Below are positions 3,049-17,606 of a stretch of 24,898 nucleotides of DNA, piece by piece; positions within the stretch are counted from its first letter, which is position 1; each line of letters begins with the position of its first letter. The notes below the pieces were generated by a model. That model was given only the letters and a program-made list of their open reading frames with translations. It did no database searches and was not told the DNA's origin. Source of the stretch: a virus; the IMG/VR virus record IMGVR_UViG_3300035698_002520, positions 1 to 24,898 of that record; one strand, written 5' to 3'. Position numbers and translations under genes: made by a program.

Positions 3049-3597
3049 TTAATCTGCGTTTACTAATTCTGATACTTTACAAGTGATTTCTGTACTTGAA
3101 ATCTTAATACAATCTAGTTCTGAATATTCTGTGCTATCAATTACATCAGCATTATTGTCTACTGCTATTAAGTTAATGTTAGAACCTGCTGTGATTGTTA
3201 TTGCCATTGCACTTGTAGTAGCGTTATAAATCATCCAATTTTTGCTATTACCTATGTTAGGGATAATAGATGATAATTGTGCTGCTGTTGGTAATGTGAG
3301 AGCTTTTGTGCTTCCATCATTGACTGTGATGTCTAATAAGTTGTTAGTTCTCATTTGATAAACTGACAATGTACTTGCAACACTTGATGTCGCAAGACCT
3401 AAAGCTCCGATACCACTTACTAAATTTGCGTTTACTGTTACATCATTCCAAATGTCGCCACCAGGAAATGCACCAAAATTCTCAACTCCACCTTGTATTT
3501 GTTTCAACTCATCTACCGACATTGTTAAAGCAAAAGTTGCACTAACTGAAATCATTAGTGTCAAGGCTACTGTTAAAAATACTTTGAATTTTTTCAT
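3049..3597 (-). CDS. Exported or membrane-inserted protein of the head module, function unknown
   Basis: A 182-aa protein with a textbook Sec signal peptide: MKKF, a hydrophobic core FLTVALTLMISVSATFA, then a likely cleavage near residue 23. The mature part is Thr/Ser/Asn rich and beta-like (TSSVASTLSVYQMRTNNLL, ATTSAMAITITAGSNINLI), with two cysteines near the C-terminus (LDCIKISSTEITC) that could form a disulfide. Such a leader is odd inside a capsid cluster. It may be a surface decoration or host-envelope protein made with the late genes. No family recognised. Confidence 0.65.
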   Translation of the reverse strand: MKKFKVFLTVALTLMISVSATFALTMSVDELKQIQGGVENFGAFPGGDIWNDVTVNANLVSGIGALGLATSSVASTLSVYQMRTNNLLDITVNDGSTKALTLPTAAQLSSIIPNIGNSKNWMIYNATTSAMAITITAGSNINLIAVDNNADVIDSTEYSELDCIKISSTEITCKVSELVNAD

Positions 3598-3601
3598 AGT
3601 T

Positions 3602-3703
3602 TTATTTTTTAGATTTCTTAGATTTAGCCTTTTTTTCGACCTTTGCCTTTTTAGGCACTTCTTTAACGGCTTCGGCTTGTATTTTATCCTTTAAAGAAGA
3701 CAT
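3602..3703 (-). CDS. Small lysine-rich protein (33 aa)
   Basis: A 33-codon frame starting MSSLKDKIQAEAVKEVPKKA and continuing as an almost pure Lys/Ser/Ala tail (KVEKKAKSKKSKK). The ATG has the A-rich leader typical of this genome, and the stop lies 4 nt before the next gene, as expected for a packed operon. The tail would bind nucleic acid or acidic proteins. It could be a minor virion or DNA-condensing peptide; function unknown. Confidence 0.5.
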   Translation of the reverse strand: MSSLKDKIQAEAVKEVPKKAKVEKKAKSKKSKK

Positions 3704-4425: not shown

Positions 4426-6172
4426 TTTGTTTTGCTAGAGCTTCAACTGGTGCTGTTGACCCACCTTGTGGCAACTGTTGAGCTTGTTGTGGTAAAGCTC
4501 CAAACATAATTGGACTTAAACCAGAACTTTCTAGTATTGAATTTAATAATTTAGTCATTTCTGGGTCTTGTCTGATTTGTGGTGTAGCGATATATTGCTT
4601 CATCACATTTACTAACTTATCTGTAATTAGTGCTAGATTCTTTTGTTTACCTGCTATGTTAGTTTTTACTGATAGATTCTTTCCTGCAAAGTCTTTCTTT
4701 AATATTTCAACAAATCTTTTAGTCCCTCCTTTAACAAAATTATTCTTAGTTTCTTCAACCAACATCTCTTTTTCTCCTTCTGCTATCTGCTCTCCTCTCA
4801 ATACTTTTTCTGCTAAAGCCTTGTTAGCATGGTTACTAGAAATCTTATCTGATAACTCCATAATCTCATCAGCACTAAACTCTGTTAGGAATGTTTGGTC
4901 TTTTGTTATTTCTTTTCCAATATATGGTAGTATCCAATCTCTTTCAATCTCATCCATAAAGACTGCCAATTGACCTTGTCTATGAACGTGCATACCTAGA
5001 GCTTCTACGTTTTGAGCTTCAAATGATTTAAAAGGTGTACCAGACGAAGGTGCTTTACCAAGTTGACCTTCGCTAGCTGAACCAATCTCTCTAGCCTTTT
5101 CTTCCCATCTTTCAACTGATTTATCAAACAAAGCTATATTACGAGGGTAAGTATCCATTTGCCATACGCCCTTAGTTCCTTGTGTTGTTTCTATTAATTC
5201 AAGATTGTCCATATCCTTTAATCCTGACTTATGTTTTGAAGCAACAGCTGGGTCATCTGTTAAAAGCAAAGTCTTTGAAGCACTGTCTAGCATTTCTGTT
5301 GTAGTTATCTCGTTCCAGTTAGTCCACTTTTGTGGTTCAAATAGTTCTTCAACTCCACCTCTGCCTAATGCTCTGCCATTAATCTTATCTCTTTTAAGGA
5401 ATTTAAATGGTAGTTTAGGTTCTCGACTTTTAAACAACGTAACACCAACTTTCTGTCCGTTCTCATCTTGATACTCTGCTACTATTTGAACTTGTTGTAT
5501 GTCGTGTGCTTCTTCATCTAGTGTATTAAAGTCATGTTGTAGCCATTCCTTACGCATATTACCATGTAATTCATATACTTCTATTTCATCATTTTCTTCT
5601 ATTCTCGCTAGTAAGATTAAATCTTCTACGCTTATAGTTGCTCCATTTTCGTTTAGCCCCCATTTCTTTTGTTCTCTTAACTGTGAAGCACTAAATGTGT
5701 GCTTAATAGCAAAAGGGTAAGCCAAGATGTTTGTCTGGTTACAAAATGCTAAAGTTCTTAAGTCTATTACTTCTGGTTTCTTACCACCTTTGTTCTGCAC
5801 AAGTATTCCTCCATAGTCTGCGTAACTATCAATCATATCGTCTATAAAAGTGTCTATTGCATTATCTAAAGCCCATTTTTCATGGAATTTCCTTGATAAT
5901 GTGCTTTTATAATACTCATCTGGGTTATCAACAAATAATTCAATGTCTTTTACATCAAATCCCTCTGTACGTTTCTGTATGTTTAGAATAGCTAAGATTA
6001 TGTTCTTAAAAGGTCTTAGTGTTCTATTCTCATTGCTGTCTTCAAATTGTGAGTTTAGATACAAAAAAGAACGCCTTAAATGGTCTTTCATAGACCACTC
6101 CCAACCTTCTTCTAATGTGACAGGTTTTAGGTAAGCGTTTTCTTCTTTTGTTATAAAGTCATATATTGTCAT
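4409..6172 (-). CDS. Portal protein
   Basis: A 587-aa protein, the right size for a phage portal, which forms the twelve-subunit ring at the DNA-entry vertex and docks the terminase. Supporting features are the long mixed helical body, the segment IGSASEGQLGKAPSSGTPFK near residue 365 (a portal-like loop before a long helix AQNVEALGMHVHRQGQ), and a C-terminal Gln/Pro low-complexity tail (QQAQQLPQGG). It lies downstream of large terminase and upstream of scaffold and capsid genes, the canonical order. The ATG follows immediately on the T-run of a strong terminator-like hairpin (6173-6205), so its expression may be attenuated. The call rests mainly on size and order. Confidence 0.75.
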   Translation of the reverse strand: MTIYDFITKEENAYLKPVTLEEGWEWSMKDHLRRSFLYLNSQFEDSNENRTLRPFKNIILAILNIQKRTEGFDVKDIELFVDNPDEYYKSTLSRKFHEKWALDNAIDTFIDDMIDSYADYGGILVQNKGGKKPEVIDLRTLAFCNQTNILAYPFAIKHTFSASQLREQKKWGLNENGATISVEDLILLARIEENDEIEVYELHGNMRKEWLQHDFNTLDEEAHDIQQVQIVAEYQDENGQKVGVTLFKSREPKLPFKFLKRDKINGRALGRGGVEELFEPQKWTNWNEITTTEMLDSASKTLLLTDDPAVASKHKSGLKDMDNLELIETTQGTKGVWQMDTYPRNIALFDKSVERWEEKAREIGSASEGQLGKAPSSGTPFKSFEAQNVEALGMHVHRQGQLAVFMDEIERDWILPYIGKEITKDQTFLTEFSADEIMELSDKISSNHANKALAEKVLRGEQIAEGEKEMLVEETKNNFVKGGTKRFVEILKKDFAGKNLSVKTNIAGKQKNLALITDKLVNVMKQYIATPQIRQDPEMTKLLNSILESSGLSPIMFGALPQQAQQLPQGGSTAPVEALAKQNERSI

Positions 6173-10498: not shown

Positions 10499-10777
10499 TT
10501 ATCTAACGTAGCAAGTTCGTTGCTTGTTAGAATACTTTGACTTTCTTCTACTGATTACTACTTCTTCTCCTGAAAGCCATTGTTTTGTTATTTTTCTATA
10601 CTCTTCTTGCGATAATCTTCTACCATAAGGGATTATCTTTTCGATTTCGTTATGACACATTTGACACAAGTATAATACACTTTCGTTTCTTCCGAAGAAT
10701 CTTTTTGGGTAAACGTGGTGACGAGTAAGTCTTTTTATTTTGCAACACTTACAACAGAAACCTGTCTTGCATGTCAT
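10499..10777 (-). CDS. HNH endonuclease
   Basis: A 92-aa compact HNH nuclease: N-terminal zinc knuckle CCKCCKIKRL, then TRHHVYPKRFFGRN with the catalytic His pair, then LCQMCHNEIEK supplying the second cysteine pair and final His. A basic C-terminal tail (ISRRKSKYSNKQR) could hold DNA. It has a strong Shine-Dalgarno site (AGGAGG, 7 nt before ATG), rare in this genome, and a 4-nt overlap with the preceding small gene. It may be a homing nuclease or serve packaging/recombination; I cannot tell. Confidence 0.85.
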   Translation of the reverse strand: MTCKTGFCCKCCKIKRLTRHHVYPKRFFGRNESVLYLCQMCHNEIEKIIPYGRRLSQEEYRKITKQWLSGEEVVISRRKSKYSNKQRTCYVR

Positions 10778-15131: not shown

Positions 15132-15212
15132 AAAAAACCTCTGACATGTACGTGCTTAATAGCTCACACTGGCTACCAATCGTATTACCGATTGCGTACA
15201 TCTCAAAGGTTT
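15132..15212 (-). ncRNA. Structured leader RNA ending in a terminator (riboswitch- or attenuator-like)
   Basis: Minus strand: an 18-bp basal stem pairs 15195-15212 with 15135-15152, with one G-G mismatch and one wobble. Its 3' arm runs straight into TTTTTT, so it is also an intrinsic terminator. Inside are hairpin CAATCG-GTAATA-CGATTG and hairpin TAGC-CAGTGTGA-GCTA, giving a three-way junction. The loop bases TAATA could pair with TATTA beside the last stem. It begins about 45 nt after a perfect promoter and ends 17 nt before the replication gene. No family recognised. Confidence 0.65.
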
Positions 15213-15239
15213 CTTAATTGTGTGTGATTTTTTAAGCAT
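15156..15239 (-). CDS. Possible leader peptide (27 aa)
   Basis: A frame MLKKSHTIKKPLRCTQSVIR ending VASVSY, preceded by AATAAAAATG as in real starts here. It begins before the structured RNA, runs through the 5' arm of the basal stem and stops near the junction. Translation would disrupt the terminator stem, as in attenuation. It could equally be a chance frame. Confidence 0.25.
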   Translation of the reverse strand: MLKKSHTIKKPLRCTQSVIRLVASVSY

Positions 15240-15262
15240 TTTTATTCAGTTATCTATAATTT

Positions 15263-15290
15263 ATTATACGCCTATCTGATAGAATGTCAA
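15263..15290 (-). promoter_or_regulatory. Perfect-consensus sigma-70 promoter
   Basis: Minus strand TTGACA (15285-15290), 16-nt spacer, TATAAT (15263-15268): 12 of 12 consensus bases. AGCTA precedes the -35, giving AGCTATTGACA as at 8985-8995. Transcription would begin near 15256 and run into the structured leader and the initiator-like gene. This should be one of the strongest promoters in the window. Confidence 0.85.
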
Positions 15291-15894: not shown

Positions 15895-16038
15895 TTATGT
15901 TGTATAATAATTATCTTTTGATTTAAGTCTTGCTTCTGTATAGTTATAGCAAGGGCAGTTCTTGTTATGTATAACTGACCTGTAAGGGAATTTATGTTTT
16001 AGTATTAGCTCATGATATGAGCAGGTGCATTTTTTCAT
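15895..16038 (-). CDS. Small Cys/His protein (47 aa), possible zinc binder
   Basis: A 47-codon frame MKKCTCSYHELILKHKFPYR with a second pair CPC near residue 30. The CxC ... CxC spacing with a nearby His fits a small metal-binding fold. The ATG overlaps the TGA of the cytosine methyltransferase by 4 nt (ATGA), so it is coupled to that gene. Function unknown. Confidence 0.55.
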   Translation of the reverse strand: MKKCTCSYHELILKHKFPYRSVIHNKNCPCYNYTEARLKSKDNYYTT

Positions 16039-17126
16039 AATAGTTTTAACATTATTTCTTTAATTACATTTACGGTAACAGCATTTCCCGCCATTTTATA
16101 GCGGGCAGAATCAGAAATTGCAACCACATCTCCGTTTTCGTTAACTCCCTCTTTAGTCCAGTCATCTGGAAACCCTTGTAGACGTTCACATTCTTTTGGG
16201 GTTAATCTACGGATCTTAGCATCTTGCAAGGTGTGTTGTTGCATCCCAGTATCAATTGTTTGGGCTACACCCTTACCAACTCTACCTCGTCTAGTCTTTG
16301 AGTTAGGAACTGAAAGGTTTATTGAATCACCTTCTTCTGCTATTGCATATCCTTTCTTTGTTGCTTCTTTGACTGCGTACAATCCAGTCTTTGCTCCTTG
16401 CCCTCCTGCTTGACTTGCCTGAGTCGTAGATAATCCATCTGTAGCATAAACCCTGTTTCCTTGTCCGCCTCCTATAATTTGTTTAAGAGTTTTTGGGTTG
16501 CCTCCTCCGATAGGAAATACTTCTGGACGACTTGTTCCTCTAAGATGTCCGACAATGAACACTCTTTCCCTGTTTTGTGGAACACCGAAATTTTTGCTGT
16601 TAAGCACTTGCCATTGACAGTCATACCCCAATTCATCAATTTCGGTAATGATAGTTCTAAAAGTTCTACCTTTGTCGTGAGATAATAATCCTTTGACATT
16701 CTCAAGAAGGATAAGACGTGGTTGTTTTTGTTTAATAATCCTGCAGATTTCAAAGAAGAGTGTACCGCGGGTATCCATGAACCCTTTTCTTTTTCCAGCG
16801 ATTGAAAAACTCTGGCAAGGGAATCCGCCCACGAGGAGGTCAAAATCTGGTAATTCTTTTTCATTGATTTTTGTGATGTCTCCATAGTTTTTGTGGTTAA
16901 AGTGTTTGTTATAGACTTGGATGGCGTATTTGTCGATTTCACTAAAGCCAATACAGGTATTTGTCCTCCCCCTTGCCCCATCGCCTGTGTTAGACAAGGA
17001 CTGATGTTGTCCGTTCTTGGTGTTTGGTGTTTCTGGAGTCCTCCCCATATTATATAGTTCTTCATAGGCTTGTTGAATCCCTAGGGTAAAACCTCCCACT
17101 CCACTAAATAAATCTAGATACTTCAT
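16035..17126 (-). CDS. dcm: C5 cytosine DNA methyltransferase
   Basis: A 363-aa enzyme that methylates carbon 5 of cytosine using AdoMet, probably shielding phage DNA from restriction. Motifs are all present: I DLFSGVGGF (5-13), IV GGFPCQSFS with nucleophile Cys104, VI LENVKG (141-146), VIII QNRERVFIVG (184-193), IX RRLTPKECERLQGFP (about 308-322) and X AGNAV. The variable region 200-305 would set the target site. Residues 24-58 are a polar insert between motifs I and II. The gene is visibly less AT-rich than its neighbours. Its first 36 bases re-encode, with other codons, the start left behind at 17603-17641. Confidence 0.95.
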   Translation of the reverse strand: MKYLDLFSGVGGFTLGIQQAYEELYNMGRTPETPNTKNGQHQSLSNTGDGARGRTNTCIGFSEIDKYAIQVYNKHFNHKNYGDITKINEKELPDFDLLVGGFPCQSFSIAGKRKGFMDTRGTLFFEICRIIKQKQPRLILLENVKGLLSHDKGRTFRTIITEIDELGYDCQWQVLNSKNFGVPQNRERVFIVGHLRGTSRPEVFPIGGGNPKTLKQIIGGGQGNRVYATDGLSTTQASQAGGQGAKTGLYAVKEATKKGYAIAEEGDSINLSVPNSKTRRGRVGKGVAQTIDTGMQQHTLQDAKIRRLTPKECERLQGFPDDWTKEGVNENGDVVAISDSARYKMAGNAVTVNVIKEIMLKLL

Positions 17127-17605
17127 ATTATTTCCCCTTAGTTATATTATTAATTATATTATCATTTTTCCAATGACACGATTGGCACATTCTTTTATAG
17201 TCATTGGTATCTTCATATTTACCAGTCATATTTGCCCAATGGTATCTCTTTTTTTTATCTGTAGTTCCACAAATCTCACACTTCTTCGGCATACCTCTTT
17301 TTTTATATACCCGATAATGCAGTGCTGAATACCCTGCCTTGTCACCTCTCCAACAAGGATTGTTTTCTCCGTCTTGATTGTTATTTTTTGGTACCCTTGT
17401 TTTTATTTTCAAATCTCTCATCCATCTCCAAATTATTTTCTGAGTAACCCTATAATGTATTGCTAACTGGTTTTGTGTTAGTCCACTATTGTAAAGTTTT
17501 TTTATTTCCACTTTTTTTGGTAGAGGTGTTTTTGTGTACATGTTTGTCATAGATATAAATTTAATTATTATATCTATATTCTAGCAAACCCACATATCCT
17601 TGTCA
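17091..17605 (-). mobile_element. Putative HNH element that replaces the 5' end of the methyltransferase gene
   Basis: The segment runs from the break after motif I in the truncated start (GGAGGT at 17606) to the same codon in the intact gene (GGAGGT at 17091). It contains a promoter starting at the very border, an HNH gene, and a 36-base replacement start coding for MKYLDLFSGVGG. Because the replacement is in frame, the methyltransferase stays intact after insertion. Borders are inferred from the repeated coding motif; no terminal repeats or target duplication are evident beyond it. Confidence 0.65.
17128..17550 (-). CDS. HNH endonuclease with helix-turn-helix N-terminus
   Basis: A 140-aa protein. 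Residues 10-45 form a helix-turn-helix (IKKLYNSGLTQNQLAIHYRV, then TQKIIWRWMRDLKI). The C-terminus is the phage 'WAN'-type HNH: NPCWRGDKAGYSALHYRV, KKCEICGTTDKK, YHWANMTGKY and RMCQSCHWKND, with the cysteines binding zinc and the YHWAN His/Asn catalytic. Its stop lies one base before the methyltransferase ATG. It separates a motif-I-truncated methyltransferase start from the intact gene and has its own strong promoter, so a homing nuclease aimed at that gene is likely. Confidence 0.85.
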   Translation of the reverse strand: MTNMYTKTPLPKKVEIKKLYNSGLTQNQLAIHYRVTQKIIWRWMRDLKIKTRVPKNNNQDGENNPCWRGDKAGYSALHYRVYKKRGMPKKCEICGTTDKKKRYHWANMTGKYEDTNDYKRMCQSCHWKNDNIINNITKGK

Positions 17606-17606
17606 A
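17578..17606 (-). promoter_or_regulatory. Sigma-70 promoter of HNH-dcm unit
   Basis: Minus strand TTGACA (17601-17606), 17-nt spacer, TAGAAT (17578-17583): 11 of 12 consensus bases. The first T of the -35 is the last base of the motif-I codon of the broken methyltransferase start, so the promoter begins exactly at the insertion border. Expected start near 17571, 20 nt ahead of the HNH ATG. Confidence 0.8.

Follow-up and report, generated by a model that had tools for sequence, protein, structure and literature searches.

A compact RNA of C4-like anatomy, predicted to be self-terminating, ahead of a phage replication initiator gene: a candidate brake on replication

The DNA analysed here (the window) is the whole of IMG/VR viral record IMGVR_UViG_3300035698_002520, 24,898 nt long, which is possibly a fragment and carries its likely genes on the minus strand. 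The element under study belongs entirely to that strand, where all features named in an initial annotation, made from the sequence alone, are present (Table 1). Its promoter had been called perfect. We found that TTGACA (15290–15285) and TATAAT (15268–15263), separated by 16 nt, indeed match the sigma-70 consensus at all 12 positions, and that this is the sole 12/12 match in the ~14 kb scanned (11–24.9 kb of the window). From the promoter to the T6 run, the predicted RNA extends from ~15256 to 15132 (~125 nt). The 27-codon frame that was said to begin before the fold is also there, and the next gene, described as replication initiator-like, encodes a DnaD-like protein whose start codon lies 16 nt past the T-run. 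Elsewhere in the window, a C-5 cytosine methylase gene (16035–17126) overlaps a 197-aa frame on the same strand (16472–17065). A near-perfect promoter with an extended TG, TTGACA-17-TAGAAT, followed by the inverted repeat AGATATAA/TTATATCT, is found at 17606–17550 on the minus strand, just before an HNH-like gene (17128–17550).

Table 1. Features of the element and its surroundings, and leader/inner complements of alike elements in other phage loci
Feature	Position	Strand	Basis or remark
Sigma-70 promoter TTGACA-16-TATAAT	15263–15290	−	12/12 match; start predicted near 15256
27-codon leader frame MLKKSHTIKKPLRCTQSVIRLVASVSY	15156–15239	−	AUG overlaps segment b; stop just ahead of 3′ basal arm
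Target segment b, UGCUUAA	15232–15238	−	complement of b′; overlaps AUG
Target segment a, UCACAC	15222–15227	−	complement of a′
Linker ACAATTAA, just 5′ of basal stem	15214–15221	−	sequence comparison; also in L014 and L024 (+)
5′ arm B of basal stem/terminator	15195–15215	−	computed fold
Hairpin 1, 6 bp, 6-nt loop GUAAUA	15177–15194	−	computed fold
Hairpin 2, apical part carrying antisense segment a′ (GUGUGA, 15169–15164)	15159–15176	−	fold; a′ 81% unpaired
Antisense segment b′, UUAAGCA, last base of hairpin 2 plus open junction strand	15153–15159	−	85% unpaired
3′ arm B′ of basal stem with T6 at its end (15137–15132), predicted intrinsic terminator	15132–15152	−	fold and growing-transcript computation
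DnaD-like helicase loader/replication initiator, 191 aa	14540–15115	−	PHROG 2514, E 8e–26
Leader/inner complement, L028: AATCCTCTCTG/CAGAGAGGATT			
Leader/inner complement, L209: ATGATGGAGGG/CCCTCCATCAT			
Leader/inner complement, L077: GTTCATCGA/TCGATGAAC			
Leader/inner complement, L088: TGGATGCAT/ATGCATCCA			
Leader/inner complement, L024: TGCCT..TTACTAC/GTAGTAA..AGGCA		−	

The 121 nt downstream of the promoter fold at –36.3 kcal/mol versus –18.8 ± 3.1 kcal/mol for 200 dinucleotide shuffles (z –5.7, 0/200 as good), and the plus-strand fold of the same region is far less exceptional (z –2.9). The fold contains the 18-bp basal stem and the two inner hairpins of the annotation. The stem is a helix of ~18 bp with one mismatch (15215–15195 : 15152–15132; 13 + 7 pairs around a single G-G mismatch), with extra A-U pairs that take up part of the U-run, and an open junction strand of 6 nt (15158–15153) separates hairpin 2 from the 3′ arm. 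The T6 run lies directly on the basal stem, as had been noted; in the in-silico fold, a stable stem is thus followed at once by a U-run, as in intrinsic terminators. A loop-junction pairing TAATA/TATTA had been proposed as well. Both words are present, one in the loop of hairpin 1 and one in the junction, but a second pairing is far better, and we set TAATA/TATTA aside because it has no parallel in other elements.

This second pairing, missed in the initial annotation, joins leader segment A (UGCUUAA-AAAA-UCACAC), which covers the start codon (AUG) of the 27-codon frame, to segment A′ (GUGUGA-GCUA-UUAAGCA), made up of the hairpin-2 loop and the 3′ junction strand. The duplex has 13 pairs and –16.5 kcal/mol, was matched by 21 of 2000 leader shuffles and scores p 0.0075 in the set test. 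The A:A′ helix crosses the basal stem, hence two folds compete. In partition functions of growing transcripts, A:A′ stands at 0.93–1.0 until about nt 117 and at 0.0 from nt 120; its loss, at nt 119–120, comes when the terminator arm is nearly complete. Such a modelled flip from A:A′ to the terminator is the behaviour of an attenuator. In the computed fold of the finished RNA, A is 94–95% and A′ 81–85% unpaired. The same in-silico flip was seen for elements at seven other phage loci (L024 (–), L077, L028, L209, L088, L062 and L298); the nascent RNA of L014 keeps the leader helix weakly, at 0.24 at most. Cofolding of the short RNA with the leader gave no added stability, by a method that is blind to loop-linear contacts and misses the known pairing of phage P4 too. 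Read on the plus strand, A′ and A make up a hairpin with TTTTTATT behind it (15153–15253). This arrangement resembles a terminator for the opposite direction; no plus-strand gene needs one.

We looked for relatives of the RNA by blastn and nhmmer over 2.5 Mb of relatives and in a phage collection and found no sequence homologue. The DnaD-like protein as bait brought up no close relatives, and the neighbouring HNH protein none, and the collections searched held no close homologues of the window element for base-pair covariation. Rfam gave no match in the window at the gathering threshold, none to the C4 model (RF01695) even at E ≤ 10 and none to isrK (RF01394); SAM-II (E 5.4), mir-5985 and other weak matches were taken as chance. 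Among the matches listed for the pattern of promoter plus ACAATTAA in viral contigs, most are likewise due to chance. About 170 loci, gathered as relatives of the terminase gene, were scanned for long T-run stems alone, by structure only. Contigs among them have been assigned to Woesebacteria, Parcubacteria and many other bins, binning of phage contigs being unreliable as host evidence.

The structure-only scan revealed that the layout promoter-A-B-A′-B′-U recurs with wholly different sequences in other phages. The letters of A and A′ are unrelated between phages, complementarity is kept in each (Table 1), and the alike elements share no conserved junction or loop letters. In the nearest full relative (G001, terminase 77% identical), the element is at L014:877 and shares a 12-mer with the window, ACACACAATTAA, just before the basal stem. 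Locus L024 has two strong elements, of which the one on the minus strand precedes an O-like replication initiation gene; the L077 element also precedes a replication initiation gene, those of L028 and L088 precede a DNA primase gene, and in L209 the replication initiation gene is the second gene after the element. The genes next to the L014 and L024 (+) elements are not known replication genes. Five replication genes were found to have an adjacent T-run, 15–32 nt ahead of the start codon, and in each case the element is there. A leader frame across the stem is present in 6 of 11 alike elements versus 2.2 expected (P 0.007). The leader peptides are unlike one another, and the 27-codon frame of the window is not conserved even in the nearest relative. 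Given that unrelated-looking versions stand before replication genes in other phages, the element probably acts at the RNA level to hold back phage replication.

Several loci show variations. The L024 (+) unit (5829–5985; 5909) has TTGACA-17-TATACT, then a knot whose leader and inner region are complementary over 17 nt (GTAATACTTCGTAACAT/ATGTTGCGAAGTATTAC), and finally a terminator; since no gene is obvious downstream on that strand, the unit may be a stand-alone RNA. At L237 (minus strand, ~3531–3690), the promoter-A-B-A′-B′ layout (GCGAATTTAG/CTAGATTCGC) precedes an O-like replication gene but lacks the U-run; a Shine-Dalgarno sequence follows the stem in its place, and a 33-aa frame runs across the hairpin. 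Termination may therefore not be the only output of the layout. The L088 element recurs almost unchanged in L307, and the two copies are too similar to reveal covariation. L306 (1800–2010) and L307 (1030–1240) also share a near-identical element, and the primases that follow differ in their N-terminal parts from the start codon on, so the element looks like a module boundary. Units at L024 (–, 13656) and L149 (–, 8743) combine a hairpin, a leader/inner complement and a terminator (AATAAAAGC...GCTT, then A-B-A′-B′) and have no clear promoter. In L014, TTGAAA-16-TATAAT feeds a ~99-nt RNA with a strong terminator (10541–10680) roughly 1 kb ahead of the terminase gene, and a tRNA 3′-like fragment after the integrase C-terminus (690–740) forms an att-like site right before the element of this nearest relative. 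In the primase relatives L304 and L305, the gene lies within an operon, with no element directly upstream. Candidates at L210, L219 and L220 were dropped for apparent coding overlap or a weak leader helix.

Several alike elements were picked by eye after the structural scan; the part unselected on the leader is the set of counts on 89 long T-run stems, chosen blind to it. Eight of the 89 were promoter-linked (at least 10/12 matches at 5–75 nt upstream), and six of these eight have leader:inner complementarity at p ≤ 0.062, four of them at p ≤ 0.0075. In the remaining stem groups, with weaker promoters, the median leader:inner p is 0.37–0.48. Crossing complementarity with a score of at least 20 occurs 18 times in real versus 4 times in reversed sequence. 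A looser switch scan (10-bp stem) yielded no excess (43 real versus 41 reversed). Hence only long stems with long complementarity discriminate, and our claim rests on the strict form.

The C4 (CI) immunity RNA of phage P4 shuts down a primase operon. We used the P4 genome as a positive control. It matches RF01695 at 8507–8420 (74.9 bits), with C4 targets and the IsrK-like seqA RNA upstream. Its C4 folds into a basal stem of 16–17 bp with two hairpins, the first of which has a tetraloop, and leaves a strand of 8 nt open; the window, L077 and P4 thus have in common a long basal stem that closes a three-way junction, a pair of hairpins and a 3′ junction strand that stays open. In P4, target b (GTGAGAA, 8667) and target a (TTCACAGG, 8651) lie ahead of the antisense segments; hairpin 2 contains a′ (CCTGTGAA, 8463), and the junction strand b′ (TTCTCAC, 8448). 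Order and places are the same in the window: b TGCTTAA (15238), a TCACAC (15227), a′ GTGTGA (15169) and b′ TTAAGCA (15159). As in C4, a′ and b′ are complementary to the upstream b-a target of the same transcript. The annotation recognised no known family, which holds by Rfam scores; the architecture, however, is that of the C4 antisense RNA of P4 and P1.

In P1 and P7, the a′ and b′ loops of C4 bind target mRNAs, b′ partly over the ribosome-binding site, and C4 is cut by RNase P out of a longer transcript (PMC5320573). In P4, premature termination, brought about by CI RNA via upstream and downstream targets, keeps the replication genes from being expressed (PMC4825925). The window RNA is like C4 (RF01695; targets RF03163) in its three-way junction, with antisense a′ in the second-hairpin loop and b′ in an open strand of 6–8 nt. 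Unlike C4, its target lies only ~10 nt upstream, and its basal stem itself bears the U-run and is the predicted terminator, whereas the U-run terminator of P4 belongs to the separate upstream isrK-like RNA. A complete promoter-terminator unit would make RNase P processing unnecessary. As the window stays below the C4 model even at the loosest cut-off, we do not file it as a C4 member and call it C4-like in anatomy; close target, terminating basal stem and lack of a sequence match together point to a variant of the C4 type or to convergence.

Other known systems share parts of this logic. IsrK is a short RNA with a terminator of its own; read-through yields an mRNA that is controlled through its complementarity to the short RNA (PMC4825925). 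The element would resemble IsrK and the P4 seqA RNA (RF01394) in this combination of short self-terminated RNA, read-through mRNA and control by complementarity; unlike it, IsrK folds into separate hairpins, activates translation (the opposite outcome) and has an Rfam model that the window does not match. In plasmid pT181, the rep gene is subject to antisense-driven transcription attenuation. Plasmid pIP501 likewise shows premature termination in the leader of its replication-initiator mRNA, with a copy-number logic (PMC4981023). The element would share with both plasmids leader termination ahead of a replication-initiator gene and the copy-number logic, but the plasmid antisense RNA comes from the opposite strand with its own promoter. 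The promoter scan listed no opposing (plus-strand) promoter-like site within the element, and we therefore rejected an opposite-strand antisense RNA of the pIP501 style.

From what was computed (the parts, their complementarity, the competing folds and switch, the recurrence before replication genes and the P4-like geometry), we infer how the element may work in vivo. When the promoter fires, the target would be made first: segments b and a, at the AUG where the leader frame starts. The C4-shaped three-way-junction RNA would follow, with a′ and b′ complementary to the target and with the basal stem and U6 as terminator. While the RNA grows, A:A′ would pair in cis, which would trap the 5′ arm of the terminator within a loop; once the 3′ arm is completed, the RNA would flip to the terminator. 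Read-through into the replication gene would be set by the race between A:A′ and the terminator and by the presence of a ribosome on the leader frame. In the terminated copy, target and antisense would both be exposed and apparently too far apart for mutual pairing, so that this copy should bind the targets of other nascent transcripts. Binding in trans would block leader translation and A:A′ and so favour termination. The outcome would be negative feedback on replication, together with immunity of the same type.

Overall, we favour a compact, self-terminating C4-like antisense RNA that represses its own operon, in replication control and probably also in immunity, and give this reading an even chance. 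Its main rival is an attenuator acting in cis only, in which A:A′ only postpones the terminator, as an antiterminator under the influence of leader translation or a protein, and the terminated RNA has no role in trans. The in-silico flip is wholly cis, leader frames cross the stem more often than expected, and the cofold, which also misses the known P4 pairing, gave no sign of trans binding. However, A′ sits in an apical loop and a junction strand, where C4 of P4 and P1 keeps its trans-acting segments (PMC5320573), the finished RNA exposes both A and A′, and stems of 18–28 bp exceed what termination needs. We consider action in cis alone rather unlikely, though a serious contender. The annotation had offered a peptide attenuator and an independent small phage RNA of about 130 nt as separate options. 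Attenuator and small RNA both seem correct, as two aspects of a single element; control by the leader peptide is one possibility, with the excess of leader frames for it and the dissimilar peptides and unconserved frame against. A small RNA that acts on host or other phage targets, with the replication gene served by other transcripts, is improbable: the complete ~125-nt promoter-to-terminator unit and the similar L024 (+) unit would suit it, but the position just before replication genes recurs, and the complementarity is to the RNA itself and not to a fixed external seed.

That the element is a plain strong terminator or spacer fold, and A:A′ a chance match in AT-rich sequence, accords with the modest significance of the single element (p ~0.01) and with the loose scan. 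The complementarity in six of the eight promoter-linked stems of the leader-blind scan, the excess of crossing complementarity over reversed sequence and the match to the P4 layout speak against it, and we hold it to be quite improbable. A ligand riboswitch before the replication gene, also proposed in the annotation, fits a three-way junction with a terminator output; nevertheless, the elements have no sequence core in common, loops and junctions are unrelated in every one, Rfam riboswitch matches do not exceed chance, and the likelihood of this reading is very small. We give as little weight to a DNA-level role of the inverted repeats, as replication origin or cruciform. Near-perfect inverted repeats do lie beside the replication initiator gene, but a promoter lies upstream, the T-run is in the matching direction, and complementarity between transcript 5′ end and loop has no obvious use in DNA.

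The preferred C4-like repressor may also be one case of a widespread, protein-free replication brake, in which each terminated leader RNA represses its own operon in other genome copies and fast-diverging A/A′ pairs set immunity groups. C4-type RNA immunity is on record for P1, P7, P4-like phages and proteobacterial relatives (PMC5320573), and such a brake would reach beyond the P1/P4 world, possibly by convergence with C4; we put this forward tentatively, as somewhat doubtful. If the C4-like reading is right, ~125 nt contain the C4-type logic, which further phages, many of them known from metagenomes only, employ directly before replication genes, and immunity groups would be predictable from sequence. 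The succession of A, B, A′, B′ and a U-run after a strong promoter would then offer a concrete search rule for immunity and copy control by RNA in sequences to which Rfam is blind.
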